Shown piece after piece: positions 2,434-16,899 of a stretch of DNA of 64,000 bases; position 1 is the first letter of the stretch, and each line of letters opens with the position of its first letter. Position numbers and translations under genes: made by a program. The stretch lies in the NCBI RefSeq assembly GCF_030817535.1, contig NZ_JAUSZL010000002.1:6262001-6326000 (forward strand), in the 5' to 3' direction. This stretch comes from Streptomyces sp. V3I8. GTDB lineage: Bacteria; Actinomycetota; Actinomycetes; Streptomycetales; Streptomycetaceae. The notes beneath the pieces were generated by a model, which was not told the origin of the DNA, did not search any database, and saw only the letters and a program-made list of their open reading frames with translations.

Positions 2434-3633
2434 TCAGTCCTGGGCGAGCCAGAGGTCCGGGCCGAAGACCTCGTAGTGGATGTCGGCCGGCGCCAGGCCC
2501 TTCTCCAGGAGCTGGGTGCGTACGGCCCGCATGAAGGGGAGGGGGCCGCACAGGTACGCGCGCGTGCCCGACGCGAGCGGCACTCCGGAGAGGTCGACCA
2601 GACCGGTGCGGTCGGCCGGGTGCCCCGGCTGCGGCCGCTCGTACCAGAAGTGCGCCGCCGCGTCGGCGAGCTTCGCCGTGTACGCCTCGTGCTCCTTCCG
2701 CAGCGCGTGCCCGGCGGGGGAGCGGTCGGCGTGGACCACGGTCACCGGGGCGCTGTGCGCGTTCGCCACGAGCTGCTCCAGCATGGCGATCATCGGCGTC
2801 ACGCCGATGCCGGCGGAGGCGAGCAGCACCGGTGTCCGGTCCCCGGCGTCGAGCACGAGATCGCCGTACGGGGCGGACAGTTCGAGCGTGCTCCCGACGT
2901 GCACACGCGCGTGGAGGTGGTGGGAGACCTCCCCGTCGGGGGCTCCGCCGCCGTGCACCCGCTTCACCCCGATCCGGCGCACGGCGGAACCGGGCGCGCC
3001 GATCAGGCTGTACTGGCGCGTCTGGTGCGCCCCGTCCGGCAGTTCGACGCGTACGGAGACGTACTGGCCGGGCCGGAAGGCGGGTGCCGGGGCGCCGTCG
3101 GCCGGGCGGACGAGGAAGGTCGTCACGTCGGCGGTCTCCTCGACGCGCCCGACGACCTTCCAGGTGCGCCGGCCACCCGGACCGGCCGCCTCGGCGGCCG
3201 CGTACAGCCGCTTCTCGATGGCGACGAGGGCGTTCGCCATCAGCCAGTACACCTCGGTCCAGGCGGCGGCCACCGGCGGCGTGATCGCCTCGCCGAGCAC
3301 GTCGGCGACGGCGGCGAAGAGGTACGTGTGGACGACCGGGTACTGCTCGGGGGCGATGCCGAGGGAGGCGTGCTTGTGCGCGATGCGGTTCAGCATCGTG
3401 TCGGGCCGTACGTCCGGCCGTTCGACGAGCTGGGTGGCGAAGGCGGCGAAGGCGCCCGCCAGGGCCCGGCGCTGGACGCCGGAGGACTGGTTGCCCCGGT
3501 TGAAGAGGTCGCGCAGCAGCTCGGGGTGGGCCGAGAAGAGGCCCGCGTAGAAGCGGTCGCTTATCTCCGGCAGGGCCCCGCCGACGGCGGGAAGAGTGGC
3601 GCGGATGGTGGCGGCGGACTGCTCGGACAGCAT
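2434..3633 (-). CDS. hmpA: flavohemoprotein, nitric oxide dioxygenase
   Basis: This 399-residue protein oxidises NO to nitrate using O2 and NAD(P)H. The globin domain covers about residues 1-140 (the distal part includes FYAGLFSAHPELLRDLFN, and the HKHASLGI segment carries the proximal His). It is followed by an FAD-binding ferredoxin-reductase domain (FRPGQYVSVRV, RQYSLIGAP) and an NAD domain (LLASAGIGVTPMIAML, YLCGPLPFM, HYEVFGPDL C-terminus). The ATG at 3633 follows a GAGGAG site; an upstream in-frame ATG would place the start on the operator. The NsrR box at 3670-3692 predicts NO induction. The length is normal for the family. Confidence 0.92.
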   Translation of the reverse strand: MLSEQSAATIRATLPAVGGALPEISDRFYAGLFSAHPELLRDLFNRGNQSSGVQRRALAGAFAAFATQLVERPDVRPDTMLNRIAHKHASLGIAPEQYPVVHTYLFAAVADVLGEAITPPVAAAWTEVYWLMANALVAIEKRLYAAAEAAGPGGRRTWKVVGRVEETADVTTFLVRPADGAPAPAFRPGQYVSVRVELPDGAHQTRQYSLIGAPGSAVRRIGVKRVHGGGAPDGEVSHHLHARVHVGSTLELSAPYGDLVLDAGDRTPVLLASAGIGVTPMIAMLEQLVANAHSAPVTVVHADRSPAGHALRKEHEAYTAKLADAAAHFWYERPQPGHPADRTGLVDLSGVPLASGTRAYLCGPLPFMRAVRTQLLEKGLAPADIHYEVFGPDLWLAQD

Positions 3634-3669
3634 CGGGGCTCCTCGGCTCGGCTGACGGCACCGTATTGA

Positions 3670-3692
3670 AACTTGCATCTGAAATGCAAGTT
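3670..3692. promoter_or_regulatory. NsrR operator of hmpA
   Basis: An 11-1-11 inverted repeat has left half AACTTGCATCT, a central G, and right half AAATGCAAGTT. One half is the reverse complement of the other with one mismatch. Architecture and sequence closely resemble the NsrR sites known in front of S. coelicolor hmpA genes. It lies 37 bp upstream of the hmpA start codon, suited to blocking transcription. Confidence 0.8.
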
Positions 3693-3989
3693 ATAGAGTG
3701 TGCGGGAAGCGTGGGGGAGGGGACGGGGAGAAGGCGGGGAGAGGGGGACGAGGGAGGAGGAGGCGGGGAGGCGGCGGTGGTCGGCCATTTCATGTGCGGC
3801 GCCCAGGGGGCAAGATGGGCGTCGGAGCAGTACATGCGCCGTACGTGAGGCGTTCGGGCGGAGGTCGGCCGGAGGATCGGGGCCCGCAACGCGCATGAAA
3901 TGCTGTTGTGGTGTGATGCACAGGTGCCCGACCGCCTCCCTGGGACGGGAGCAGGCGGCCTGACCAGCAAGATTGGGTGGAAGCGGAAG

Positions 3990-5351
3990 ATGGACAAGCA
4001 GCAGGAGTTCGTGCTCCGTACGTTGGAGGAGCGCGACATCCGTTTCGTACGCCTGTGGTTCACGGACGTGCTGGGCTTCCTCAAGTCCGTGGCCGTGGCC
4101 CCGGCCGAGCTGGAACAGGCCTTCGACGAGGGCATCGGCTTCGACGGATCGGCCATCGAGGGCTTCGCCCGCGTCTACGAGTCCGACATGATCGCCAAGC
4201 CGGACCCGTCGACCTTCCAGGTCCTGCCGTGGCGGGCCGAGGCCCCCGGTACCGCCAGGATGTTCTGCGACATCCTGATGCCGGACGGCTCACCGTCCTT
4301 CGCGGACCCGCGGTACGTGCTGAAGCGGGCGCTGGCCAAGGCCTCCGACCTGGGCTTCACCTTCTACACGCACCCGGAGATCGAGTTCTTCCTGCTGAAG
4401 GACAAGCCGACGGACGGCTCGCGCCCGACCCCGGCCGACAACTCCGGCTACTTCGACCACACCCCGCACAACGTCGGCATGGACTTCCGCCGCCAGGCGA
4501 TCACCATGCTGGAGTCGATGGGCATCTCGGTCGAGTTCTCGCACCACGAGGGCGCCCCGGGCCAGCAGGAGATCGACCTGCGGTACGCGGACGCGCTCTC
4601 CACGGCCGACAACATCATGACGTTCCGCCTGGTCATGAAGCAGGTGGCGCTGGAGCAGAACATCCAGGCGACGTTCATGCCGAAGCCGTTCAGTGAGCAC
4701 CCGGGCTCGGGCATGCACACGCACCTCTCGCTCTTCGAGGGCGACCGCAACGCGTTCTACGAGTCGGGCAGCGAGTACCAGCTGTCCAAGGTCGGCCGCT
4801 CCTTCATCGCGGGCCTGCTGAAGCACTCGGCGGAGATCGCCGCGATCACCAACCAGTGGGTCAACTCGTACAAGCGCATCTGGGGCGGCTCCGAGCGCAC
4901 CGCGGGCGCCGGCGGTGAGGCTCCCTCGTACATCTGCTGGGGCCACAACAACCGCTCGGCACTGGTGCGCGTCCCGATGTACAAGCCCGGCAAGACGGGC
5001 TCGGCGCGGGTGGAGGTGCGCTCCCTCGACTCGGGCGCGAACCCCTACCTGGCGTACGCGGTCCTGCTGGCCGCCGGCCTCAAGGGCATCGAAGAGGGCT
5101 ACGAGCTGCCGCCGGGCGCCGACGACGACGTCTGGGCCCTGCGGGACGCGGAGCGCCGCGCGATGGGCATCGAGCCGCTGCCGCAGAACCTGGGCGAGTC
5201 GCTGACGCTGATGGAGCGCAGCGAGCTGGTCGCCGAGACGCTCGGCGAGCACGTCTTCGACTTCTTCCTGCGCAACAAGCGCCAGGAGTGGGAGGAGTAC
5301 CGCTCCGAGGTGACGGCCTTCGAACTGCGGAAGAACCTGCCGGTGCTGTAG
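3990..5351 (+). CDS. glnA2: GlnA2-type glutamine synthetase-like ligase (gamma-glutamylpolyamine synthetase)
   Basis: This 453-residue GS type I fold starts at MDKQQEFVLRTLEERDIRF, following a purine-rich leader. The beta-grasp domain has FTDVLGFLKSVAV and GFDGSAIEGFARV. The catalytic domain shows the metal and substrate motifs HPEIEFFL, SHHEGAPGQQEIDL, FMPKPFSEHPGSGMHTHLSL, and NRSALVRVP with arginines lining the active site. It lacks the NLY adenylylation loop seen in GlnA at 48033-49442. The S. coelicolor counterpart SCO2241 has been described as a polyamine-glutamate ligase rather than a true GS, so the name rests on close resemblance. The last ~30 codons lie in a duplicated segment at the left edge of an integrated element, so the 3' end appears to be element-supplied. 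Confidence 0.88.
   Translation: MDKQQEFVLRTLEERDIRFVRLWFTDVLGFLKSVAVAPAELEQAFDEGIGFDGSAIEGFARVYESDMIAKPDPSTFQVLPWRAEAPGTARMFCDILMPDGSPSFADPRYVLKRALAKASDLGFTFYTHPEIEFFLLKDKPTDGSRPTPADNSGYFDHTPHNVGMDFRRQAITMLESMGISVEFSHHEGAPGQQEIDLRYADALSTADNIMTFRLVMKQVALEQNIQATFMPKPFSEHPGSGMHTHLSLFEGDRNAFYESGSEYQLSKVGRSFIAGLLKHSAEIAAITNQWVNSYKRIWGGSERTAGAGGEAPSYICWGHNNRSALVRVPMYKPGKTGSARVEVRSLDSGANPYLAYAVLLAAGLKGIEEGYELPPGADDDVWALRDAERRAMGIEPLPQNLGESLTLMERSELVAETLGEHVFDFFLRNKRQEWEEYRSEVTAFELRKNLPVL
5264..5311 (+). repeat. left attachment core (attL), direct repeat copy 1
   Basis: These 48 bases inside the glnA2 reading frame are identical to 7725-7772 (offset 2461 bp). The match starts at CTTCCTGCGCAACAAG and stops at the third base of a Val codon. 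A second identical block of 40 bp (5331-5370 and 7792-7831) follows after four mismatches. Confidence 0.8.
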
Positions 5352-5391
5352 GGGCGGGTCGGCGGGGGTTTCCCGCTGCAACGGCATGTGA

Positions 5392-5416
5392 GGCCGACGG
5401 TCAGTGACCGTCGGCC
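5392..5416 (+). terminator. terminator of glnA2 (element-side copy)
   Basis: A perfect 11-bp stem GGCCGACGGTC with an AGT loop starts 41 bp after the glnA2 stop. A near-identical hairpin follows the displaced glnA2 fragment at 7851-7875, showing that the duplicated unit extends through the terminator. Confidence 0.7.
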
Positions 5417-5437
5417 CCACAGCTTTTCACTGCCCTT

Positions 5438-5456
5438 GGGCCGTCTCTGGGCCGTC
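5438..5456 (+). repeat. arm-type direct repeat, left copy
   Basis: GGGCCGTCTCTGGGCCGTC, itself two GGGCCGTC units, recurs with one mismatch at 7602-7620. One copy lies just inside each end of the element, the layout expected for tyrosine-recombinase arm sites. This is an inference. Confidence 0.45.
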
Positions 5457-5469
5457 ACGCCTTCAACTC

Positions 5470-5727
5470 TTAACCTTTTTGGATGCCCGTTGTGTCCTGC
5501 AGTACTCCGCGACGGCCGTCCCGCTCTTGTATGACAAGTGTTGGGCCTCGCTCCTCAACTGCGAGGTACCAAGTACCCGGAGCGACCGTGAACACGGGAA
5601 CTGCAGAGCCATCCTCAGAAAATGCTGAACGCTCTACTGGTACGGCAAGCCAGAAGGGTGAGAACGTATCGACTGGTGCCTGGCTAAGCTCGACCCAAGG
5701 GTCCCACCGCCCGATCAGCCGCTGCAC
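5470..5727 (-). CDS. doubtful small ORF inside the element
   Basis: An 85-codon frame opens with GTG at 5727 and has no clear ribosome site. The C-terminal 40 residues (TWYLAVEERG, TLVIQERDGRRG, DTTGIQKG) look like a genuine small beta-rich protein, with acidic and basic residues in normal balance. The true start may be internal, for example a GTG near 5590. The family is not recognised. It ends close to the left arm repeat. It could be a remnant of a longer gene lost from the element. Confidence 0.35.
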   Translation of the reverse strand: MQRLIGRWDPWVELSQAPVDTFSPFWLAVPVERSAFSEDGSAVPVFTVAPGTWYLAVEERGPTLVIQERDGRRGVLQDTTGIQKG

Positions 5728-5870
5728 ACCAGCAAGATCGTGTTACGAGTTCTTAGTGCCGCCTCCTGCTGCTTGTAGGAGCCCACCTCACCGTACAAAA
5801 CAGGTGGTCAAGCGGGGTAGATGACCTTGCTCCTGTTGCGTCAGAACGAGTATGAGACTCGGTATGCAGA

Positions 5871-5897
5871 GGGACCCGGACAGTTTGTCCGGGTCCC
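5871..5897. terminator. strong hairpin downstream of the PIN-like gene
   Basis: A perfect 11-bp inverted repeat GGGACCCGGAC with a 5-nt AGTTT loop lies 151 bp past the stop of the minus-strand PIN-like gene. It can end transcription from either direction and may insulate the cargo from glnA2 readthrough. About 150 bp between it and the gene hold nothing recognisable. Confidence 0.55.
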
Positions 5898-6047
5898 TGA
5901 TCCGAGAGTTACGGGGTCTCAGATGACTAACCGAAGCCCGCGCGAGAGCGGTTTGGAGTAAAAACTCACTCGTGGGCAGCATGATCTCGAAGGCCAGCCG
6001 CCAGTTAGTGGATGAACTCCATTTGCGGAAAAGTCATGGGCACTTAC

Positions 6048-7484
6048 TCACTTACCCTCCCTCTGGTTGGCGCTGAGTTGCTCATTCCGCATGCGATAAA
6101 TGGCCCTGTCGAGTTTCTCTTCAAGTGTGTGAATATGCCTGTCAAGTTCAGCTAGATGCACTTGGGATGAGCCATCTTCGCGCTCTTTCATTACTGATAG
6201 CGAGGCGCGCCGATTCCTCAGAGTTTTGATCTCATCCTCAAGGGCACTTAGGTGTAGCCAAGCTTGTGACACCTCATGCGGTGCTGCGAAATCATCTCGA
6301 GCGTCACGGCCGAATTGACGTTTCCGCTTGTCTTGCACCATGGAATACGCGAGCTGCCAGTCCCCGAGGGGCATATGTAGAATTACGTCATTGCCAGACA
6401 GTCTGGGATTCTTGGTTATATGGTTGACGATGCGTTCGACGTCGTCGATTATCCTCCAGTGTCGACGCTGTCGCGCCAGGCTTTGCTCTGCGACTTCCTC
6501 GGGAGTCATATCTATGTACTCGCGAAGTGTGCTCACCATTTCGATGTACTGAGATTCAGGGATCTCGTAGCGATAGATATCTTCCGCGCCTACTCGGAGA
6601 GGAGGGTTTTCGGCCTCGGCGACAGTTGATTCGCTAATCGCGGCGCCGAGCTCCCTCTTCGCTATCTGCAAAAATCTTCCAAGCTGTGTCACCATGAAAT
6701 CAGCGTTGCACCTTTTCCTGAACTCGGATAGCAGCTCAGGGCGTGCTCCAACGATTAGATCGGACTCCTTCCTGACCCAGTCTTCTTTGGTGTCGTTCGT
6801 GATGAAGAGAACCGAGTGTGAACCTTCCTTGCAGTCACGAAGTAGCTGCTCCCATATGAAGAAATCACCGTGAGCATTCTCAGGTTTGGCGGCATCCATA
6901 TAGCCGGGGGGAACTCCATCTGCGGCGCGCCGCTGGAACTCAGTTACGAGCTGGGAAGCTTCTCCATCTTCGAATCCTGAACCGGTTCTCTCGTCAAAGA
7001 TCTCACCTAGTCTGGCCAAAATTGGATCGGAGTTCACAACAGTTTCAAGGGACAGGTCAAATGTGTCCCGGTGCATTTCTATTTCAGCTCGAACGTCAGC
7101 GAATGCCTTACTGATTGGGGCGGTGAGTTTATTTCTTTCCTCGCCGCTGAGAGAGCACCTTTTTGCGAAAGTATTAACCTCTTGAAGTACCTTGCGTTCG
7201 TGCGCTTCAAGTGCTGCCGAGGTTGTCTTGTATAGTCCTAGATGATCTTTTACGGCGGATATGCGGCGGGCGTAGTACTCCGATGCGACTTGATGCGTGA
7301 CCCATAGTCGATCCTTGAGAAGATAAAGGACGCTCAGTAGCTCATCGCGGGATTTGGGTGTGAATCGATATAGTTCGAGTAGGACATTAGTGTCGACGGA
7401 TATTCGATAGTTATGCACTGCGTGTTCGTATTCTGCTGGTGGGCGACGCCAGAATCCGTCAAACGCACGCAAGAAAGTGGACAA
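6048..7484 (-). CDS. PIN-like domain protein, cargo of the integrated element
   Basis: This is a 478-residue protein. The chosen start is TTG at 7484 because an AGGGGG site sits six bases before it and upstream in-frame codons run through the arm-repeat region. The N-terminal half reads as a PIN-like nuclease domain: SVDTNVLLELYRF (first acidic residue on a beta strand), a helical insert (residues ~45-195), DFFIWEQLLRDC, and a late SVLFITNDTKEDWV strand with the conserved ND acidic position. The C-terminal 150 residues are charged and helical, ending in a predicted coiled coil (ALEDEIKTLRNRRASL through LDRHIHTLEEKLDRAI). Codon use is much less GC-biased than in the neighbours, indicating transfer. 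PIN domains are usually RNases. A role in phage defence or abortive infection is plausible for a lone cargo gene but unproven. Confidence 0.75.
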   Translation of the reverse strand: MSTFLRAFDGFWRRPPAEYEHAVHNYRISVDTNVLLELYRFTPKSRDELLSVLYLLKDRLWVTHQVASEYYARRISAVKDHLGLYKTTSAALEAHERKVLQEVNTFAKRCSLSGEERNKLTAPISKAFADVRAEIEMHRDTFDLSLETVVNSDPILARLGEIFDERTGSGFEDGEASQLVTEFQRRAADGVPPGYMDAAKPENAHGDFFIWEQLLRDCKEGSHSVLFITNDTKEDWVRKESDLIVGARPELLSEFRKRCNADFMVTQLGRFLQIAKRELGAAISESTVAEAENPPLRVGAEDIYRYEIPESQYIEMVSTLREYIDMTPEEVAEQSLARQRRHWRIIDDVERIVNHITKNPRLSGNDVILHMPLGDWQLAYSMVQDKRKRQFGRDARDDFAAPHEVSQAWLHLSALEDEIKTLRNRRASLSVMKEREDGSSQVHLAELDRHIHTLEEKLDRAIYRMRNEQLSANQREGK

Positions 7485-7601
7485 ACCAACCCCCTGGTAA
7501 GGCTTACAGTCGTAGACTAGTAACGACTCGCCGGTTTGTGAGGGCTTTCGACCAAACCACGAGCAAGAGGGTCGCTGGCTGGAGCAGACCATGAGGTCGC
7601 C

Positions 7602-7620
7602 GGGCCGTCTGTGGGCCGTC
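7602..7620 (+). repeat. arm-type direct repeat, right copy
   Basis: GGGCCGTCTGTGGGCCGTC matches 5438-5456 with one mismatch. It is followed by a GGTGGCCCACAGTGACCAAC stretch that inversely repeats part of the motif (TGTGGGCC / GGCCCACA). This stretch, about 100 bp before the right core, contains no gene. Confidence 0.45.
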
Positions 7621-7724
7621 GAAGGGTGGCCCACAGTGACCAACAACGACCGATGATGACTGCTCGACCACAGGCCGGCGTTGTGCCTACGTCGATGGCG
7701 TGAGGTCGCTCCGGACCGATGTCA

Positions 7725-7772
7725 CTTCCTGCGCAACAAGCGCCAGGAGTGGGAGGAGTACCGCTCCGAGGT
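7725..7772 (+). repeat. right attachment core (attR), direct repeat copy 2
   Basis: Identical to 5264-5311. Sequence to its left shows no resemblance to glnA2, and sequence to its right continues as the remaining glnA2 3' end and its terminator before the next host gene. Confidence 0.8.
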
Positions 7773-7812
7773 CACGGCGTTCGAGCTGAGGAAGAACCTG
7801 CCGGTGCTGTAG
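7726..7812 (+). pseudogene. displaced 3' fragment of glnA2 (28 codons plus stop)
   Basis: The frame FLRNKRQEWEEYRSEVTAFE through LPVL and TAG is amino-acid identical to the last residues of glnA2 but has no start or upstream coding part. It differs from the active copy at four codons, all synonymous (GTG/GTC, GCC/GCG, GAA/GAG, CGG/AGG). The simplest reading is that this is the original chromosomal gene end left behind after integration. Confidence 0.8.
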
Positions 7813-7850
7813 GGGCGGGTCGGCGGGGGTTCCGCCGGTCTGGTCGCGGG

Positions 7851-7875
7851 GGCCGGCGGTCGTGGACCGTCGGCC
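7851..7875 (+). terminator. terminator following the displaced glnA2 end
   Basis: Stem GGCCGGCGGTC / GACCGTCGGCC with a GTG loop and one mismatch, orthologous to the hairpin at 5392-5416. The surrounding sequence has diverged more than the hairpin, suggesting the structure is under selection. Confidence 0.6.
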
Positions 7876-7980
7876 CCGACGGCGTTTCGGCGTCCCCGGA
7901 TCCCGTCGCCGGCTCCATGCGAAGATCTACAGGCCCTTTCGGGCTCCGCCCCGCCGCAGTGACGATTCCTCGGAGAGCCC

Positions 7981-8763
7981 ATGCGCCGCGCCCATCTCTT
8001 TTCCGTTGCCGTCCTCCTGCTCTGCACCGCCTGCTCCAGCGGTTCGGAGGGAGAGGAGAAGAGAACCGTGGACCACGGGGCGGCCGTGCGCGCCGCGATA
8101 GGGAGGACGAGCGCGGACAGCGCCCGCCTGGCCGAGACGATCGAGATGCGGTCCACGGACAGTCCCACGACGTACGTGTTCACGATCGCCGGCGCCTTCG
8201 ACCTGGCGGGTGACCGGGGCCGGCTCACGGTGGGTCTCAAGGACAGCGGCATGGACCCCGTCGAGGAGGTCTTCGTCGGCGACACCGTCTATGTGCGGGG
8301 CTCGCGGGCGGTGGACGAGGGCACATGGGCCTCGGCCGTCCGGAGCGAGGCCCTGACCCGCTACTTCCTGCGGGCGCCGCTGAACGACCCCGAGCACCTG
8401 CTCCGTCAGATGAAGGCGATGCGGCAGGTGACGAAGGAGGGCCAGGAGCAGGTGAACGACGCCCCCGCGGTGCACTACCGGGGCACGATCGACCATGCCA
8501 CCGCGACGCTCCGGATGACGACGAAGACGAAACAGGGACTGGACGACGTACGCGAGCAACTGGGCGAGGACGTGCCCGTCTACGCGGACGTGTGGGTCGA
8601 CGGGAAGGGGCGCGCCGTGCAGGCCCGGCTGTCCTACTTCGGCGGCATGAAGGCCGTGACGACGATGACACTGTCGGACTTCGGGACGCCGGTGAAGGCC
8701 GAGGCGCCACCGGCCGGGCAGGTCGTCCCCGTGACGGCGGGCGAGGACGTCCTGCTGGCCTGA
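7981..8763 (+). CDS. secreted lipoprotein, LppX/LprG-like fold
   Basis: This 260-residue lipoprotein begins MRRAHLFSVAVLLL with lipobox LCTAC, so Cys18 is the expected lipidated residue. The mature part has alternating beta-strand patterns (TYVFTIAGAFDL, RGRLTVGL, EEVFVGDTVYVRG, YADVWVDGKGRAVQARLSY) typical of the half-barrel LppX/LprG-like lipoproteins of actinobacteria that bind hydrophobic ligands. Family assignment is by pattern only. A GGAGAG site precedes the ATG. It is the first host gene to the right of the element and was originally adjacent to glnA2. Confidence 0.75.
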   Translation: MRRAHLFSVAVLLLCTACSSGSEGEEKRTVDHGAAVRAAIGRTSADSARLAETIEMRSTDSPTTYVFTIAGAFDLAGDRGRLTVGLKDSGMDPVEEVFVGDTVYVRGSRAVDEGTWASAVRSEALTRYFLRAPLNDPEHLLRQMKAMRQVTKEGQEQVNDAPAVHYRGTIDHATATLRMTTKTKQGLDDVREQLGEDVPVYADVWVDGKGRAVQARLSYFGGMKAVTTMTLSDFGTPVKAEAPPAGQVVPVTAGEDVLLA

Positions 8764-8815
8764 GCGGGGCGGAACGGACGTCCTCCGCACGCATTTGCGT
8801 CGGTGTGACCGAGTG

Positions 8816-9289
8816 TCACCTCTCGCCGAGGGATGCCTGGCGGGCACGGAACTCCTCGAACGCCGCCTTCTGCTTCGGATCCATGAAGCCCTGACGGACA
8901 TGGCGGGCCTTCTCCTGGAGCCAGTGCGCCTCGTCGGGGTCCAGGAGCTCCGCGACCACCACGCCTTCGCGGGCGACCGCCGTGCGCCCTCCCACGCGAC
9001 GCCGAAGGAGCGTGAACGCCCCGAACTCCGCCGGGTGGGCCAGTTCCGGCTCCTTCGAGACAGCCCCGTTCTCGGCACCGACGTCCCTCGTCGCGTAGGC
9101 GGTGGGGGCCCAGTGCTCCCAGAGCGCCAGCGTGGCCGCGGGCACCAGCACCACGCGTTCCGCCTTTTCACGCCCTTCCCACATGAACGTGACCGTGACG
9201 GGCTCCCCGACCGCCTCGGCCAGTCCGAGCACCCTCTCCACCTCGTCGTCGACCGGGTAACCCACCACTGCATCGATCTGAATGCCCAT
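8816..9289 (-). CDS. conserved hypothetical protein, 157 aa
   Basis: Start chosen at MGIQIDAVVGYPVDDEVERV, where coding character begins; an upstream in-frame ATG would add 28 low-quality residues. The protein is acidic, soluble and without signal or membrane segments. Two beta-rich blocks ([48 protein letters not shown]) are followed by a helical tail ending FEEFRARQASLGER. No family recognised. It converges on the lipoprotein gene 52 bp away. Confidence 0.6.
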   Translation of the reverse strand: MGIQIDAVVGYPVDDEVERVLGLAEAVGEPVTVTFMWEGREKAERVVLVPAATLALWEHWAPTAYATRDVGAENGAVSKEPELAHPAEFGAFTLLRRRVGGRTAVAREGVVVAELLDPDEAHWLQEKARHVRQGFMDPKQKAAFEEFRARQASLGER

Positions 9290-9725
9290 GGCGCCCGAGG
9301 CTACCGGCCACTTCTGACAGTCGGCCCAGGGTTCCTGAGCCACGCGAGCCACGCGGAGGCGTGCGGCATCCACGCACCGGTTCGCGCCCTGTCCGACGGC
9401 ACGGCCGGGGCGATCGTCGTCGCGCCGGGCGGGCCGCGGCGGACGGGATCCTCCGTGCGCTCACGGCGCGGACCCGGCAGATGCGGCTGGTTCTCGCGCC
9501 GTCCACTCCGGAGATCCTCGACGCGACTCTCGACGTACGAGCGCGGTACGTGTCGCTCGCCGCCGAGTACGACTCCGGCTCCAGCTCCGGCTCCTGCGGC
9601 GCGCGCTGTCGACCACCCGTACGCGGGCCCGGCGTACGGGTCACGCGGTGGACGGTAAGGGTAACCGTCCGTGACCATAGGTGACTTGGTGGAGTTGGTG
9701 GGTGTGGGTCGACGGAGGGGCTGGG
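9290..9725. other. 436-bp gap with no convincing gene
   Basis: Short frames exist on both strands: a minus-strand frame 9301-9678 beginning VTDGYPYRPPRDPY and a plus-strand frame 9361-9684 with RLVLAPSTPEILDATL. Neither has a ribosome site or a recognisable fold, and coding signal switches between frames. It may hold a decayed gene. Promoters for the flanking divergent genes must lie here. Confidence 0.4.
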
Positions 9726-10601
9726 ATGGCGGACGGCGTGGGTGGGGCGGGTGCCCCGGGGTGCGGTGGCGGTAGCGGTAGCGGCGAGCCGGAGGTGTCC
9801 GACAGCCTCAAGACGTTCGGCGAGGTGGTCAAGGCATTCCGGAAGCGGGCGGGGCTGACGCAGGAGGAGTTCGCGCCCAGAGTGCGGTACTCGCTGCCGA
9901 CCGTGGCCTCCATCGAGCAGGGGCGCCGCTTTCCGCCGCCGGATTTCGTCGAGCGGGCGGAGGAGGTGCTCGACGCGTTCGGGGCGCTGCGGGGGGCCGC
10001 CCGGCATGTGTCCCGGCGGCCCGGGCTGGCGAGTTGGTTCCGTCAGTGGGCGCGGTTCGAGGCCGATGCGGTGAGCCTGTACACCTACGAGTGCCGGGTG
10101 GTACCTGGCTTGTTGCAGACGGAAGGGTACGCGCGAGCGGTGTCTTTCAGCGTGCCGCCGCTTCCCGCCGCGGAGGAGATGGACGAGCGCATCGCGGCCC
10201 GCATGGCTCGGCACGAATTGCTGGCGACGAGCCGCAGGCCCCCGACGGCGTTCAGTTTCATCGTGGAGCAGGCGGTCCTGGAGCGGCATACGGGCGGCGC
10301 GGAGGTCACGCAGGAGCTGTACGACCACCTGCTCGACCTGATCGGACGGCACTGGAACGTGGAGTTCCAACTCATGCCGCTGCGGCAGCCGGTGCACGCA
10401 GGACTGGACGGGCCGATGCGCTTGGCGGAGACCCCGGACAACCGGTGGTTCGGGTACTCCGAAGGACAGGAGAACGGGCGGCTCATCACCGCACCGGAAG
10501 AGATCAGCCGACTCCATCAGCGCTATGCCAAGATGCGTTCACAGGCCCTGACGCCCGAGGACTCGCTGGGCCTGCTGCGGCGAATGCGAGGAGCGCTATG
10601 A
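9726..10601 (+). CDS. XRE-family regulator with DUF5753 domain
   Basis: This is a 291-residue regulator. The ATG at 9726 follows GGAGGGG. A Gly-rich leader of about 25 residues precedes an XRE helix-turn-helix (residues ~30-85, FGEVVKAFRKRAGLTQEEFA, YSLPTVASIEQGRRFPPPDF). The remaining 200 residues are the DUF5753 domain (PGLASWFRQWARFEADAVSL, ECRVVPGLLQTEGYARAV, LYDHLLDLIGRHWNVEFQLMP). Its TGA overlaps the ATG of the DUF397 gene. Such pairs are the most common paralogous regulator module in Streptomyces, often tied to development, and are regarded as regulator and cognate small partner. Confidence 0.88.
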   Translation: MADGVGGAGAPGCGGGSGSGEPEVSDSLKTFGEVVKAFRKRAGLTQEEFAPRVRYSLPTVASIEQGRRFPPPDFVERAEEVLDAFGALRGAARHVSRRPGLASWFRQWARFEADAVSLYTYECRVVPGLLQTEGYARAVSFSVPPLPAAEEMDERIAARMARHELLATSRRPPTAFSFIVEQAVLERHTGGAEVTQELYDHLLDLIGRHWNVEFQLMPLRQPVHAGLDGPMRLAETPDNRWFGYSEGQENGRLITAPEEISRLHQRYAKMRSQALTPEDSLGLLRRMRGAL

Positions 10602-10861
10602 ACACGTCCGGCCTGGCCTGGTTCAAGAGCAGTTACAGCGGCTCGCAGGGCGACGACTGCGTCGAAGTGGCCCTGTCCTGGCGCAAGTCCAGTCGCAGCG
10701 GCAGCGGCAGCGGCAGCGGCAGCGGCAGCGGCGACTGCGTCGAGGTGGCCGCCCGGTCCGGCGCCGTCCACGTCCGTGACTCCAAAGCGCGGCGCGGGCC
10801 CCAACTCGCCGTCTCCCCAGGCGCATGGGCCGGTTTCCTAGCGTACGCAACCCGTCGCTGA
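10598..10861 (+). CDS. DUF397 protein with duplicated N-terminal motif
   Basis: Start ATG at 10598 overlaps the regulator's stop (ATGA). The 87-residue product has the DUF397 core W-[FR]KSS-x-S-x-DCVEVA twice: WFKSSYSGSQGDDCVEVA and, after a short link, WRKSSRSGSG repeat GDCVEVA, then ARSGAVHVRDSK and a C-terminal WAGFLAYA. Usually one copy is present in about 60-70 residues. The second copy holds a Ser-Gly dipeptide run encoded by a GGCAGC hexamer repeat (about 10697-10733), which may vary in length. Predicted partner of the preceding regulator. Confidence 0.85.
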   Translation: MNTSGLAWFKSSYSGSQGDDCVEVALSWRKSSRSGSGSGSGSGSGDCVEVAARSGAVHVRDSKARRGPQLAVSPGAWAGFLAYATRR

Positions 10862-11054
10862 TGTCGGTCGTCCTACAGGTATAAGAACGTTGCGCACGGG
10901 CACGTTGACACCCGTGGGGACATAGGGGGCAGAGGTTCGGGGGAAGGTACTGTGTTCGAGGCTTGAACGGTCCACCGGGTGAACCGCGGTGGCCATCGCG
11001 ACGGACACTCCGTCCGTCCGAGCCGCCTGCACGCGACCTCTGAGAGTGAAGCTG

Positions 11055-12218
11055 ATGAACGTGTCGACCGGCGGCAGACGGCTGCGGAGCCGCGCCACCA
11101 CAGCGACCCTTGTCCTCGCCATCTCCCTGATGTCCGGGATGTTCGTGATGCCCGGGCCGAGTTACGCCGCTCCGGGTGAACCCGACCCGCGGGGCAGGTC
11201 CGTCGAGGAGATCCACGCCGAACTGGAGGGCCTCTACCGCACGGCGGAGGTGGCCACCGAGGCATACAACGCCGCGAACGAGAAGGCCACCAAGCAGGAG
11301 AAGCGGCTGAAGTCCCTCCGCAAGGGCCTGGCCCGTGCCGAGGACCGGGTGGACGAGCTGCAGGAGCTGTCGGGCGCGGCGGCCCGTACGCAGTACCGCG
11401 GGGGCAGCCTCGCCGCCACGGGCATCCAGTTGCTGCTCGGCGACCACCCCGACCAGGCCCTGAACGATGCGTCCCAGGCCCGGCAGGCACTGCGGAGCCT
11501 GGTCAACGTGGCCGAGACCCAGAAGACCGCCCGCGCGGAACTGGACCGGCAGACCGACAGCGCCGAGAAGGAGCTGGAAAAGCTCGAGGACAGCCGCGCG
11601 GACAAGGCCGAGTCGAAGAAGAAGATCGAGGGGAAGATCGCCGAGGCCGAACAGGTCGAGGCGGGACTCAAGGCGGACGAGGCCCGCAGGCTCGCCCGGC
11701 TGGAGAAGGACAAGGCCAAGGAGGCCGAGGCCCGCTGGACGGGCTCCGGCGCGGGCGGCGGCACCTCGACCGGGACCGGCGCGGGCGGCTCCGGGGCCGG
11801 TGGCTCCGACAACAACGGCGGTGGCGGCGGCGGTGGCGGCTCGGTCGGCGGCGGCACGCAGGCGACCGGGGCGGCGGCGCAGGCCGTCTCCTTCGCCATG
11901 GCGCAGATCGGCAAACCGTACGGCTGGGGCGCCGTGGGCCCCTCGGCGTACGACTGCTCGGGACTCACCTCCGTGGCGTGGGCGCGGGCGGGGCACCCCA
12001 TCCCCCGTACGTCGCAGGCGCAGTGGGCGGGACTGACCCGGGTGAGTCTGTCCTCCGCGCGGCCCGGGGACCTGATCATCTACTTCAACGACGCCACGCA
12101 CGTGGGCATGTACATCGGGGGCGGGAAGATCGTCCACGCACCGCGGCCCGGACGTACGATCACGACCGCGCCGGCCGCCTCCATGTCCATCCTCGGTGTC
12201 GTCCGACCTGGAGCCTGA
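11055..12218 (+). CDS. secreted NlpC/P60 peptidoglycan hydrolase with coiled-coil
   Basis: Start taken at MNVSTGGRRLRSRATTATLV, which gives a normal signal peptide ending PSYAAPGEP; a GTG at 10989 would add 22 residues and an odd leader. The mature part has a long helical coiled-coil (about residues 45-235, from RSVEEIHAELEGLYRTAEVA through KIAEAEQVEAGLKADEARRL), a Gly/Ser-rich linker (SGAGGG to GGGGSVGGG), and a C-terminal NlpC/P60 domain (AVSFAMAQIGKPYGWGAVGP). Catalytic Cys is in YDCSGLTSVAWARAG and His in THVGMYIGGGKIVHAPRPG. The RipA-like architecture suggests peptide cross-bridge cleavage in cell-wall remodelling. Confidence 0.9.
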   Translation: MNVSTGGRRLRSRATTATLVLAISLMSGMFVMPGPSYAAPGEPDPRGRSVEEIHAELEGLYRTAEVATEAYNAANEKATKQEKRLKSLRKGLARAEDRVDELQELSGAAARTQYRGGSLAATGIQLLLGDHPDQALNDASQARQALRSLVNVAETQKTARAELDRQTDSAEKELEKLEDSRADKAESKKKIEGKIAEAEQVEAGLKADEARRLARLEKDKAKEAEARWTGSGAGGGTSTGTGAGGSGAGGSDNNGGGGGGGGSVGGGTQATGAAAQAVSFAMAQIGKPYGWGAVGPSAYDCSGLTSVAWARAGHPIPRTSQAQWAGLTRVSLSSARPGDLIIYFNDATHVGMYIGGGKIVHAPRPGRTITTAPAASMSILGVVRPGA

Positions 12219-12222
12219 GCGG

Positions 12223-13224
12223 ATGCCCCACTCGTCGTCCCCCTCGCCGTCCCCTTCGTCGTCCTCATCGGCGTTCAACTCGCCGGTCCCCCGCCACCAG
12301 GGGAACCTGCCCGTGCTCAGCGCACCGCCGCTGATCCGTCTCGACGCCTACGTGGCCGAGGACGGGTCGACGGTGGTCAACGGCCATCTGCTGCAGATGG
12401 GCGGCACCCGGCCGCCGAACGAGGCGATCCTCGACGCCGTCGCCATGTTCGCCCGGACCCTGGGCGCGCCGGTGGCGGCCACCGTCATCGACCGGACCGT
12501 GATGCAGGTGGCCCGCGTGCGGGTGTACCCCGACGGGTCGAGCCGGACCATCGCCGACGAGGACGACCTGCCGCCCGGGCACGAGCGCACCGCCGCGGAG
12601 GAGGCGGCGTTCCCCCCGCTCGCCCGGGTCGAGCGGGTCATCCAGCACGCGCAGCGCGAGGAGCTGCACGCGGCGTTCGTCCTCGCCAGCGCGCTGCGGG
12701 AGCACCTCACGCTGCGCAGGGGCGCGGAGGACGAACTCTCCCTGGAGGCACGGGCGATCGAGGCGTACCTCGCGTACCTGCGCGGTGACTACACCCTCTC
12801 CATCACCCTCGCGCTGACCGTCGCACGCATCCGCTGCCGCACCGACCTGAACCGGGCGGCGCCCGACGTGGCCCGTGCCACGGCGGCGTGGCAGCGACTG
12901 GAGGACCAGGCACAGGTGGCCACCCGGGGACAGGAGTTGCTGCGCATGTGGGAGCAACTGTCGGCCGGCGGCCTGCTGCTGGAACCGTCCCACCAGGCCA
13001 TGGCCCGCGCCGTCCAGGGCCGGCTCGCACAGGGCGGGAGTTCCGTGCGGGCGCCGTCCGCGGTTCCCGCCCTGCCCCCGGGGCAGGGGCGGGGCACGGG
13101 ACAGGCGCCGACGACCGCCGGTCCGGGTGTGCTCGCTCCCGAGGACCAGCCGCTCAGGCCCGCGCGACGCGGGATGCGGCGCTTCACCCGGTGGCCCGGC
13201 CGGTCCGCCGGGGCGGCTTCCTAG
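12223..13224 (+). CDS. conserved hypothetical protein following the NlpC/P60 gene
   Basis: This 333-residue protein starts only 4 bp after the hydrolase stop, so it is likely co-transcribed. A Ser/Pro-rich N-terminal 30 residues is followed by a domain beginning LPVLSAPPLIRLDAYVAEDG that includes HLLQMGGTRPPNEAILDAVAMFARTLG. A helical region (about 130-250) has TPR-like pairs (REELHAAFVLASALREHLTL, ARAIEAYLAYLRGDYTLSIT). The C-terminal tail is disordered and basic. No signal peptide. Function unknown; position suggests an accessory cell-wall role. Confidence 0.65.
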   Translation: MPHSSSPSPSPSSSSSAFNSPVPRHQGNLPVLSAPPLIRLDAYVAEDGSTVVNGHLLQMGGTRPPNEAILDAVAMFARTLGAPVAATVIDRTVMQVARVRVYPDGSSRTIADEDDLPPGHERTAAEEAAFPPLARVERVIQHAQREELHAAFVLASALREHLTLRRGAEDELSLEARAIEAYLAYLRGDYTLSITLALTVARIRCRTDLNRAAPDVARATAAWQRLEDQAQVATRGQELLRMWEQLSAGGLLLEPSHQAMARAVQGRLAQGGSSVRAPSAVPALPPGQGRGTGQAPTTAGPGVLAPEDQPLRPARRGMRRFTRWPGRSAGAAS

Positions 13225-13294
13225 CCCGACCCCGCCGACCCCGCCGCCCCCCGACCCCGGCCCCCGGCCCGTCGGTCCGGACGGGCCCGCTCCG

Positions 13295-13732: not shown

Positions 13733-13902
13733 GGAACGACTCCTTCGTCGTAAGGAAGCAAACGGCTCCCCCCACCGAAACGGAAAACGGCCCCGGGCGC
13801 CACCGAGTCGACGAAGACCGTCCATGCGCTTCCCCCGCCCTCTCCGGTTAGGCTCATGGCCGTACGACCTTGATCGATCGCGTGGGACGACGGAGGCCTG
13901 GG

Positions 13903-16899
13903 ATGACGGTGCCGGGGCGCAGGAGCAGTACCTTCTCGCGGCTGCTGCGGCACGGTTTCACCGATCCGTCGGCCGCCGAGCGGCTGCTCGACAGCCCGGA
14001 GCTCGCGGCGGTGACGAACGACCCGGTGCTGCTCGACGCGCTCGGCGCCACCGCCGACCCGGACCTGGCGCTGCTCGGGCTCGTCCGGATCGTCGAGGCG
14101 CAGGAGGACGACGCGGGGCGGCGCGAACTGCTCGACACGCTGATCGCGTCGAAGCCGCTGCGCGACCGGCTGCTCGGGGTGCTGGGGGCCTCCGACGCGC
14201 TCGGCGACCACCTCGCGCGCCACCCGCTCGACTGGCAGGCCCTCGTGACGTACGAGCCGCAGGACCTGCACCCCGGGGTCGCGGAGTTCGAGCGCGGGCT
14301 CGCCGAGGCCTGCGACCCGGTGTCGCTGCGGGTCGCCTACCGGCGGTGCCTGCTGTCCATCTCCGCCCGTGACGTGTGCGGCACCACCGACATCGCACAG
14401 GTCGCCGCGGAGCTCGCCGACCTCGCGACCGCCACGCTGCGGGCCGCGCTCTCCCTCGCACAGGCGGCCGCGCCCGAGGACGCCGCGATGTGCCGGCTCG
14501 CGGTGATCGCGATGGGCAAGTGCGGCGGCCACGAGCTGAACTACGTGTCCGACGTCGACGTCATCTTCGTCGGAGAGGCCGTGGACGGCGCCGACGAGGC
14601 CAAGGCGCTGCGGGCCGCCACCCGGCTCGCGGCCCATCTGATGCGTATCTGCTCCGAGACCACCGTCGAGGGATCCATCTGGCCCGTCGACGCCAACCTG
14701 CGCCCCGAGGGACGCAACGGGCCGCTCGTGCGGACGCTCAGCAGTCACCTCGCCTACTACCGGCGGTGGGCCAAGACCTGGGAGTTCCAGGCCCTGCTGA
14801 AGGCCCGGCCCGTCGCGGGCGACGCCGAGCTGGGCCAGGAGTACGTCGACACGCTGGCGCCGCTCGTGTGGCAGGTCGCCGAGCGGGAGAACTTCGTCAC
14901 CGACGTGCAGCGGATGCGGCGGCGCGTGGTCGAGAACATTCCGCCCGCCGAGGTCGAGCGGGAGCTGAAGCTCGGGCCCGGTGGACTGCGGGACGTCGAG
15001 TTCGCGGTGCAGATGCTGCAGTTGGTGCACGGCCGCGTCGACACGTCACTGCGCAGCGGGACCACGCTCGACGCCCTGAAGGCACTGGCCGCGGGCGGGT
15101 ACGTGGGACGCGCCGACGCCGTCGAGTTCGACGAGGCCTACCGGTTCCTGCGGTCCATGGAGCACCGCATACAGCTCTTCCGGCTGCGGCGCACCCACCT
15201 CGTGCCCGAGGACGGGGCGGACCTGCGGCGTCTGGGGCGCTCGCTCGGCCTGCGCAACGATCCCGTCACCTCGCTGAACCGGGAGTGGAAGCGCCACGCC
15301 GGTGTCGTACGGCGCCTGCACGAGAAACTCTTCTACCGGCCGCTGCTCGACGCCGTCGCCCAGCTCGCGCCCGGCGAGAGCCGGCTGAGCCCCGGCGCGG
15401 CGCGGGAACGGCTGGTCGCGCTCGGTTACGCGGACCCCGCCGCCGCGTTGCGCCACCTGGAGGCGCTGGCCTCCGGCGTCTCCCGCAAGGCCGCCATCCA
15501 GCGGACCCTGCTGCCCGTCCTGCTGGGCTGGTTCGCCGACTCCGCCGACCCCGACGCGGGGCTGCTCAACTTCCGCAAGGTCTCCGACGCGCTGGGGAAG
15601 ACCCCCTGGTACCTGCGGCTGCTGCGGGACGAGGGGGCCGCCGCCGAGAACCTCGCCCGGGTCCTGTCCGCCGGACGGCTCGCCCCCGACCTGCTCATGC
15701 GGGCGCCCGAAGCCGTGGCCCTGCTCGGCAACGGCACCGGCGGCGGGCTCGTCACCCGTACCAGGGCCCACCTGGAGCAGGAGATCCTCTCCGCGGTGGG
15801 ACGGGCCGGCACGGGGGAGGCCGCGGTCACCGCGGCGCGCGGCGTACGGCGGCGGGAGCTGTTCCGTACGGCCGCCATCGACATCGTCGGCTCGTACGGC
15901 ACCGAGGAGACGCCCGCCAACGCCGACCAGGGCGCGCTGGTGGACCTCGTCGGCGGCGCCATCTCGGACCTCACCGCGGCGACGCTCGCCGGCACCCTGC
16001 GGGCCGTCGTCCGGGACGGCTGGGGCGAGGAGCTGCCCACCCGCTTCACCGTCATCGGCATGGGACGGTTCGGCGGCCACGAGATGGGTTACGGGTCCGA
16101 CGCGGACGTGCTCTTCGTGCACCAGCCCCGGGCGGGCGTGGCCGAGGAGGAGGCCGCCCGCGCCGCGGGCGCCGTCGTCTCCGAGATGCGGCGGCTGCTG
16201 CAGATCCCCAGCGCCGACCCGCCGCTGCTGATCGACGCCGACCTGCGGCCCGAGGGCAAGTCCGGGCCGCTCGTACGGACGTTGAAGTCGTACGAGGCCT
16301 ACTACCGCCGGTGGTCGCTGGGTTGGGAGTCGCAGGCGCTGCTGCGGGCCGAAGTCGTCGCGGGGGACCCAGAGTTGGGGGCGCAGTTCCTCGAACTCGC
16401 CGATCCGCTGCGGTATCCGGCGGACGGGCTCGGGGAGGACGCCGTGCGGGAGATCCGCCGGCTGAAGGCGCGGATGGAGTCCGAGCGGATGCCCCGCGGG
16501 GCCGACCCGACGCTGCACACCAAGCTCGGGCGGGGCGGGCTGTCCGACGTGGAGTGGACCGTTCAGCTGATGCAGCTGCGGCACGGGGCCTCACAGCCGG
16601 GACTGCGCACCACCCGTACGCGGGAGGCGCTGGCGGCGGCCCTGGCGGCCGGGCTGATCCCGGAGGAGGACGCGTCCACCCTGGACGAGGCATGGGTGCT
16701 GGCGACCCGGGTGCGCAACGCCGTGATGCTCGTGCGGGGGAGGGCGGGGGACACGTTCCCGTCCGACGGGCGGGAACTGGCGGCCGTGGGCCGGTACCTG
16801 GGATACGGCCCCGGGCACGTGGGCGACATGCTCGACGACTACCGGCGGACGACGCGGCGGGCGCGCGCGGTCGTGGACGAGCTGTTCTACTCGGGGTGA
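13903..16899 (+). CDS. glnE: bifunctional glutamine synthetase adenylyltransferase/deadenylyltransferase
   Basis: GlnE (998 residues, normal length) transfers AMP from ATP to the regulatory tyrosine of GlnA and removes it by phosphorolysis. Two nucleotidyltransferase domains are clear. The N-terminal one, near residues 204-220, has GKCGGHELNYVSDVDVIFV; the C-terminal one, near 718-738, has GMGRFGGHEMGYGSDADVLF. Both keep the paired Asp (SDVDV, SDADV). A helical linker holds the KLGPGGLRDVEFAVQ and KLGRGGLSDVEWTVQ motifs. ATG at 13903 follows GGAGG. Its substrate GlnA is encoded at 48033-49442; GlnII and GlnA2 lack the target tyrosine loop. No GlnR box seen upstream. Confidence 0.96.
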   Translation: MTVPGRRSSTFSRLLRHGFTDPSAAERLLDSPELAAVTNDPVLLDALGATADPDLALLGLVRIVEAQEDDAGRRELLDTLIASKPLRDRLLGVLGASDALGDHLARHPLDWQALVTYEPQDLHPGVAEFERGLAEACDPVSLRVAYRRCLLSISARDVCGTTDIAQVAAELADLATATLRAALSLAQAAAPEDAAMCRLAVIAMGKCGGHELNYVSDVDVIFVGEAVDGADEAKALRAATRLAAHLMRICSETTVEGSIWPVDANLRPEGRNGPLVRTLSSHLAYYRRWAKTWEFQALLKARPVAGDAELGQEYVDTLAPLVWQVAERENFVTDVQRMRRRVVENIPPAEVERELKLGPGGLRDVEFAVQMLQLVHGRVDTSLRSGTTLDALKALAAGGYVGRADAVEFDEAYRFLRSMEHRIQLFRLRRTHLVPEDGADLRRLGRSLGLRNDPVTSLNREWKRHAGVVRRLHEKLFYRPLLDAVAQLAPGESRLSPGAARERLVALGYADPAAALRHLEALASGVSRKAAIQRTLLPVLLGWFADSADPDAGLLNFRKVSDALGKTPWYLRLLRDEGAAAENLARVLSAGRLAPDLLMRAPEAVALLGNGTGGGLVTRTRAHLEQEILSAVGRAGTGEAAVTAARGVRRRELFRTAAIDIVGSYGTEETPANADQGALVDLVGGAISDLTAATLAGTLRAVVRDGWGEELPTRFTVIGMGRFGGHEMGYGSDADVLFVHQPRAGVAEEEAARAAGAVVSEMRRLLQIPSADPPLLIDADLRPEGKSGPLVRTLKSYEAYYRRWSLGWESQALLRAEVVAGDPELGAQFLELADPLRYPADGLGEDAVREIRRLKARMESERMPRGADPTLHTKLGRGGLSDVEWTVQLMQLRHGASQPGLRTTRTREALAAALAAGLIPEEDASTLDEAWVLATRVRNAVMLVRGRAGDTFPSDGRELAAVGRYLGYGPGHVGDMLDDYRRTTRRARAVVDELFYSG

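Follow-up and report, generated by a model that had tools for sequence, protein, structure and literature searches.

The glnA2 locus of Streptomyces sp. V3I8

The subject of this analysis is a 64-kb stretch of DNA from Streptomyces sp. V3I8 (contig NZ_JAUSZL010000002.1; the window, from the start of which all positions are counted), in which the 3′ end of a glutamine synthetase gene is present twice, on either side of an insert of about 2.4 kb. The gene (3990..5351, plus strand) has an intact frame of 453 amino acids, and its product belongs to the glutamine synthetase family (Pfam match; TIGR00653 above cut-off). We take it to be glnA2, an assumption backed by the presence of a GlnE gene at 13870-16899, 8.5 kb downstream. 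The initial annotation had described a 48-bp perfect direct repeat of the end of this metabolic enzyme gene, offset by 2461 bp and enclosing AT-richer DNA, all of which was borne out. The full repeat is longer, extending over 107 nt at 96% identity (5264..5370 and 7725..7831, both plus strand), of which the perfect run makes up exactly the first 48 nt (5264-5311 and 7725-7772); it takes in the 28 terminal codons of glnA2, the stop codon and a further 19 nt, and a similar terminator hairpin lies beyond each copy. GC content is 0.547 within the insert, compared with 0.694 and 0.713 in the flanks (about 70% for the chromosome).

The left copy, on the attL side, now supplies the translated 3′ end of glnA2 and is followed by a hairpin resembling the glnA2 terminator (5387..5421, plus strand), which is probably element-borne; similar hairpins occur at the left ends of relatives. 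The right copy, on the attR side, is the displaced chromosomal 3′ end. Between them is a single large gene, on the minus strand, for a PIN_8 protein, and a search for RNA families gave none at gathering score. In our view, a family of actinomycete integrative and conjugative elements (AICEs) probably uses the glnA2 3′ end as its chromosomal attachment site, and the insert (the window element) is probably an AICE derivative that resembles a cis-mobilizable element (CIME) and depends on a helper integrase.

The glnA2 3′ end as a recurrent insertion site

A 108-nt glnA2 end was used to query 392 Streptomyces genomes, one per species, with at most two candidates scored per genome. It was matched in 388 of them, and in 318 of the 392 there was a single match, including two genomes (G109 and G032; G and L numbers are our handles for genomes and loci) that are 96–97% identical to the window in glnA2 sequence. 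The 69 genomes besides that of the window with two matches were searched again, with 12 candidates each, and 40 proved to have two same-strand tail copies on one contig, 784–26178 bp apart. The remaining 29 were not counted (by hand tally, three had copies on opposite strands, eight on separate contigs and three far apart, and 15 had a weak second match). The counted regions include some unclean ones: G141 and G051 are partial duplications, and G234, G308, G144, G031 and G154 lack one of the two cores described below. At loci L078 (G014), L079 (G207) and L080 (G350), second tail copies lie in opposite orientation some 6–10 kb away, which suggests inversions or other rearrangements.

Empty sites, with one glnA2 end, were thus found, also in genomes close to the window's by glnA2 sequence, and different inserts at the same place, of 0.8–26 kb, occur in 40 other genomes, many with a site-specific integrase. 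The site-specific integration proposed in the initial annotation is supported by these two observations and by the site-bound integrases described in the next section. The accompanying expectation that an empty glnA2 end would be followed directly by the lipoprotein gene did not hold, because relatives differ in the genes that they have between glnA2 and glnE. In the window this gene, of the SCO4651 family, lies outside the element on its downstream side (7981..8763, plus strand); its close homologues do not adjoin glnA2 in G091, G109 or G032, and gene content across the whole interval corresponding to window positions 7832-13285 differs among relatives.

Integrases and AICE-like relatives at the site

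One of the larger inserts, the 16.3-kb region of G364, has a gene for a 422-amino-acid tyrosine integrase (Pfam Phage_integrase) adjoining attL and read towards glnA2. With this protein as reference, the integrase is full-length (at least 383 of the 422 residues) in 19 of the 41 regions, the window's included, broken in nine (the broken copy of G199 being visible in one of two integrase comparisons) and absent from 13. Among the matches listed for the 392 genomes, the best 23 (68–100% identity) are all in glnA2 regions, 20 of them directly beside a tail copy and three (G026, G059 and G281) 1–4.6 kb inside, and none of the next 50 (59–65%) is at glnA2: 25 share a contig with the glnA2 end but at a distance of 88 kb or more, 24 are on a different contig and one is in a genome with no glnA2 match. 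Judged against one annotated reference plasmid, the 21 regions of at least 10 kb often have a helix-turn-helix (HTH) gene (19), a replication-type match (14) or an FtsK match (11), so that the large inserts can be called AICE-like; their TraB and excisionase profile matches were below cut-off. In plasmid records, the sole match to the glnA2 tail was in a Nonomuraea record of 11.8 Mb, the 18-kb NBC_00562 plasmid record has an integrase of 59% identity, and pSLS was not among the 20 plasmid-record matches listed.

Seven of the loci with 59–65% integrases were inspected. Six keep an integrase end of the form [DH]GPxTAQ, no tRNA was found in any of the seven, and three (L140, L142 and L143, with integrases of 64–65%) have a spare tail resembling the C-terminal end of protein O-mannosyltransferase (profile E 0.001–0.0025, below the curated cut-off). 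Their site is probably of the same kind as the glycosyltransferase-gene site of AICE06 (see the last section), and it therefore seems that the integrase family has switched between the 3′ ends of different protein-coding genes.

Geometry of the attachment sites

The ends of the elements share an arm motif, GGGCCGTCTSTGGGCCGTC, located 173 nt after the core at the left end and 124 nt before it at the right. In the window the core, TTCCTGCGCAACAAG, is at 5265..5279 (plus strand) in attL and at 7726-7740 in attR; the left arm motif, GGGCCGTCTCTGGGCCGTC, is at 5438..5456 (plus strand), 173 nt from the core, and the right one, GGGCCGTCTGTGGGCCGTC, at 7602..7620 (plus strand), 124 nt before it. A conserved attR accessory sequence of GACCAACAACGACCAATGACGACC type (7638..7661, plus strand) lies 88 nt before the core. 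Allowing up to two mismatches, the arm motif occurs in the window at 5438 and 7602 only, the chance expectation being 0.01. Both arms are present in 27 of the 41 regions, and in all 27 of these both-arm elements CGCAACAA is found in both core copies. With mismatches allowed, the left spacing is 173 nt in 26 of the 35 regions having the left motif, and the right spacing 124 nt in 24 of 28. The left arm motif coincides with the end of the integrase gene. From their position and conservation, the arm motifs would be the arm-binding sites of the integrase, with strand exchange presumably taking place in the core.

A scan of our collection of named genomes with the exact right-end pattern gave 60 loci, of which 51 continue into a complete GlnA2 tail and its stop codon, five are cut off or masked and four diverge. 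The hosts are Streptomyces in 55 cases, with one each from Streptacidiphilus, Microtetraspora, Nonomuraea, Thermoactinospora and Acrocarpospora; the Microtetraspora locus (L147) was considered as a both-arm element and rejected, as it lacks the left arm. At L193 (S. rhizosphaerihabitans) what comes after the right arm and a glnA2-type core resembles a tRNA T-arm and not a glnA2 tail, possibly a hybrid or secondary site (ARAGORN places one tRNA-Cys, at 3630-3704 of the locus and not at the core). At L175, L191 and L195 non-glnA2 sequence begins about 20–30 nt after the right arm and core, making these candidate secondary sites or deletion junctions.

The stripped state of the window element

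The window element has kept both cores, both arms and the accessory sequence at the standard spacing, and has lost nearly all else. Of the integrase gene there remain, by eye, the last nine codons (DGPETAQGQ) and the stop (5427..5456, minus strand), beyond which there is no integrase similarity. It has no integrase next to the attachment site and no replication or FtsK-family match, as an AICE would have, and it does not encode the integrase of its own that would make it an integrative and mobilizable element; attL and attR are retained and the genes for integration and transfer are gone, as in a CIME. Thus the earlier description of an integrative element at glnA2 stands, but autonomy does not go with it, since the insert has no integrase.

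Two other regions, G007 (3.4 kb) and G325 (4.8 kb, with a weak left arm), likewise have both arms and no integrase match, and the pattern scan added a fourth such element, L168 of S. musisoli, of about 1.5 kb and with a pentapeptide-repeat-like gene (by eye). When 37 left ends were tested for integrase similarity past the left arm, 25 had it (the score was reached by 0 of 300 shuffles) and 12 did not: the window (47 of 300 shuffles), G007, L168, G325 (76 of 300, although a short integrase remnant is visible by eye), G026, G059, G281, G189, G141, G061, G308 and G031. In three of these, the window, G007 and L168, resemblance to the integrase gene goes no further than the inner edge of the arm. 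G026, G059 and G281, which are complete elements, have other DNA separating that edge from their integrase, and several of the other dissimilar left ends have degenerate arms.

The PIN_8 gene and the cargo slot beside attR

The gene beside attR (6048..7484, minus strand, with a presumed TTG start) would encode a nuclease-like protein of 478 amino acids with a PIN_8 domain (PF18476; profile score 191 bits against a gathering threshold of 26.1). Acidic residues have a catalytic role in PIN domains, and in 47 chosen PIN_8 sequences D31, E69 and D207 are invariant and D231 is present in at least 90%; N33 is conserved too. No PADLOC family matches the protein at E 0.1, no relative of solved structure was found at E 0.01, and phage records gave no match.

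Relatives are present in 33 of the 392 genomes, the window's own included, at E 1e-20; the best of the others (39% identity) is in the integrase-less region of G325, at the same site and in the same orientation. Among 30 of the 36 matching loci, examined with 1.5-kb flanks, an arm and a core lie near the PIN_8 gene only in the window and in G325 (L090 has an arm-like match and no core). A search of 100 relatives gave four matches at E 1e-40, that in the window's genome and three of 30–34%, and elsewhere there is a protein of 81% identity in S. variegatus and a PIN_8 gene (26%) upstream of the right arm in S. sp. XY006 (L166).

The nature of the cargo in general was surveyed by taking the gene nearest attR according to an automatic length and codon-bias rule (some of its picks are surely wrong), which gave 63 proteins: the window's and 62 of 81 listed, L168 being left out as the rule had picked glnA2. 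These match 101 Pfam families, and the 25 listed include AAA_21/AAA_15 (four proteins), PIN_8 (three), ApeA, Shedu SduA, reverse transcriptase and UvrD (two each) and ThsA (one), alongside GntR regulators (three), leucine-rich repeats and pentapeptide repeats (one each). At E 1e-5, 341 PADLOC profiles match the set, most of the 25 listed being ATPase families with three or four proteins each. The slot in relatives therefore often holds genes of anti-phage type, as counted without a control set. A defence role may be suggested for the PIN_8 gene from its position in this slot and from other PIN systems, such as DS-3, which is reported to be a one-protein PIN anti-phage system (PMC13092281). A 2.6-kb insert at glnA2 in G231 (L068; GC 0.52, without arms) has a lone reverse transcriptase gene, the product of which is weakly similar, below cut-offs, to antiviral Drt families.

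Age of the insertion and alternative explanations

Once an element has integrated, the right tail drops out of translation and would be expected to decay. Between the two tails of the window there are four differing positions, all synonymous, with no amino-acid change, an outcome with a probability of about 0.003 in the absence of constraint (22.6% of random changes being synonymous). Changed codons are likewise all synonymous in L168 (eight), G325 (five) and G007 (one); for the pooled 21 nucleotide changes of these four elements the probability would be about 3e-14, a generous figure that assumes independent changes. Synonymous and non-synonymous changes number two and seven in G191, six and four in G231, none and two in G127, none and one in G061, and seven and one in G362, all regions lacking one or both arms. 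Amino-acid changes are also found in two regions with full integrases (G281, two; G064, one). The synonymous-only differences thus make the window insertion look recent.

Several observations count against the reading of the window element as a helper-dependent AICE derivative. No movement of the window element has been observed. Seven alignable regions with broken integrases are also synonymous-only (17 codons), so the pattern is no proof of movement without an integrase of one's own, and fits transport by a helper as well as early loss of the integrase. At the four differing sites the bases of G109 and G032 agree twice with the left copy and twice with the right (by eye), a split that favours neither copy as the foreign one and points to no donor. 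Integrase, replication, HTH and FtsK genes occur together in nine of the 21 regions of at least 10 kb (single-reference search). Finally, a helper in the same genome was considered and rejected: the window's genome has no intact integrase of glnA2 type, the best match being a 193-amino-acid fragment (60%) at another place and the others partial and of at most 37%, so that the element is stranded at present.

Some of these points lend weight to the view that the window element is the remnant of a dead AICE, which has lost all genes except one of cargo, keeps its ends by chance and will not move again. Decay of this kind is described by Choufa et al. (2022; PMC9513070); the integrase is visibly broken in nine of the 41 regions, and arms or core are gone from several of those without one; the broken-integrase elements have the same synonymous-only tails; and the window's genome offers no helper integrase. 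This view is harder to reconcile with the survival of both arms, the accessory sequence and both cores at exact spacing, with the way in which integrase loss stops at the inner arm edge in the window, G007 and L168, leaving no larger fragment, or with the absence of amino-acid changes from the displaced tail, against seven, four and two in G191, G231 and G127. On balance, this degenerate state is a real contender, a little short of an even chance. Highly improbable is an origin by local duplication of the glnA2 end in tandem, with added foreign DNA and no site-specific recombination; partial duplications of glnA2 do exist, the second copy extending deeper into the gene in G141 and G051 (by eye), but the repeat start (TTCCTGCGCAACAAG) and arm spacing are the same here and in nearly all integrase-bearing regions, and for this reason we rejected it. 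Scarcely credible is an autonomous element with the PIN_8 protein, or an unrecognized small protein, as recombinase: the insert indeed has no other large gene, but its ends match an AICE integrase family, and arm and core accompany PIN_8 at just two of the 30 loci.

Proposed mechanism and implications

If the glnA2 3′ end is an AICE attachment site, the attP of such an AICE would carry a spare glnA2 tail, consisting of the last 28 codons, the stop and a terminator. A tyrosine integrase bound at the two arm sites would bring about recombination with the chromosome at a core in TTCCTGCGCAACAAG. The incoming tail would thereby rebuild glnA2, with the old tail displaced to the far end, and insertion would be tolerated because the element-borne tail restores the gene. 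The window element may have arrived recently, either with an integrase of its own that was later lost or moved by the integrase of another element, and would now need a helper, in the manner of a CIME. Excision would require an integrase and probably an excisionase, and a helper AICE could either work on attL and attR in trans or land adjacent to the element and carry it in cis.

It is possible, and we suggest it only tentatively, that AICEs at glnA2 have satellites: minimal elements, each with a core, a pair of arms and a single cargo gene or a small number of them (often anti-phage). Such satellites would be moved in trans by a borrowed AICE integrase, would restore the gene that they enter and would swap cargo at the inner arm edges; G007, S. 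musisoli L168 and the window element would be examples. If stripped elements do move by borrowed integrases, AICEs would have satellites as phages do. The attR slot holds known and candidate defence genes, and the site could be mined for new anti-phage systems. The integrase clade and attachment-site layout are defined well enough for the design of an integration vector, which should not disrupt glnA2.

Comparison with known systems

No statement that glnA2 serves as an attachment site was found in the literature (supplements and most subscription papers lay outside the search), in agreement with the initial annotation, which knew of none. The ‘glms’ site of Tn7 we take to be in glmS, another gene than glnA2. 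It is given as the ‘glutamine synthetase gene (glms)’ in PMC2359905. The main texts of Ghinet et al. (2011; PMC3218068) and Choufa et al. (2022) contain neither ‘glutamine’ nor ‘glnA’. AICEs in protein-coding genes, and CIMEs, are already known, and what the present findings contribute, in a field where tRNA sites predominate, is a widespread integration site within a protein-coding gene.

Ghinet et al. (2011) divide AICEs into the pSAM2, SLP1, pSLS and other groups, and most of those with tyrosine integrases use tRNA 3′ ends, as the initial annotation had supposed, with the pSLS group named as the exception. The large glnA2 relatives resemble them in having a tyrosine integrase and HTH (excisionase-like), replication-type and FtsK-like genes, and differ in the choice of glnA2 in place of a tRNA gene; all the genes just named are missing from the window element. 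Insertion sites given by Choufa et al. (2022) are in protein genes in 14 cases, in tRNA genes in 36 and intergenic in one. Among them AICE06 and its decayed forms, in a phospholipid carrier-dependent glycosyltransferase gene, offer a close parallel, with empty sites, a full AICE and decayed forms flanked by direct repeats, though in another target gene and with truncated integrases in the decayed forms where the window element keeps nine codons. CIMEs as defined in PMC5704250, beside which a helper may land and carry them in cis, are represented in Streptomyces by that of the thaxtomin region at aviX1 (PMC8369830). The window element is like them in having kept attL and attR and lost the genes for integration and transfer, and differs in its small size (2.4 kb, with one gene), in standing free and not in tandem with an integrative and conjugative element, and in its location at glnA2.

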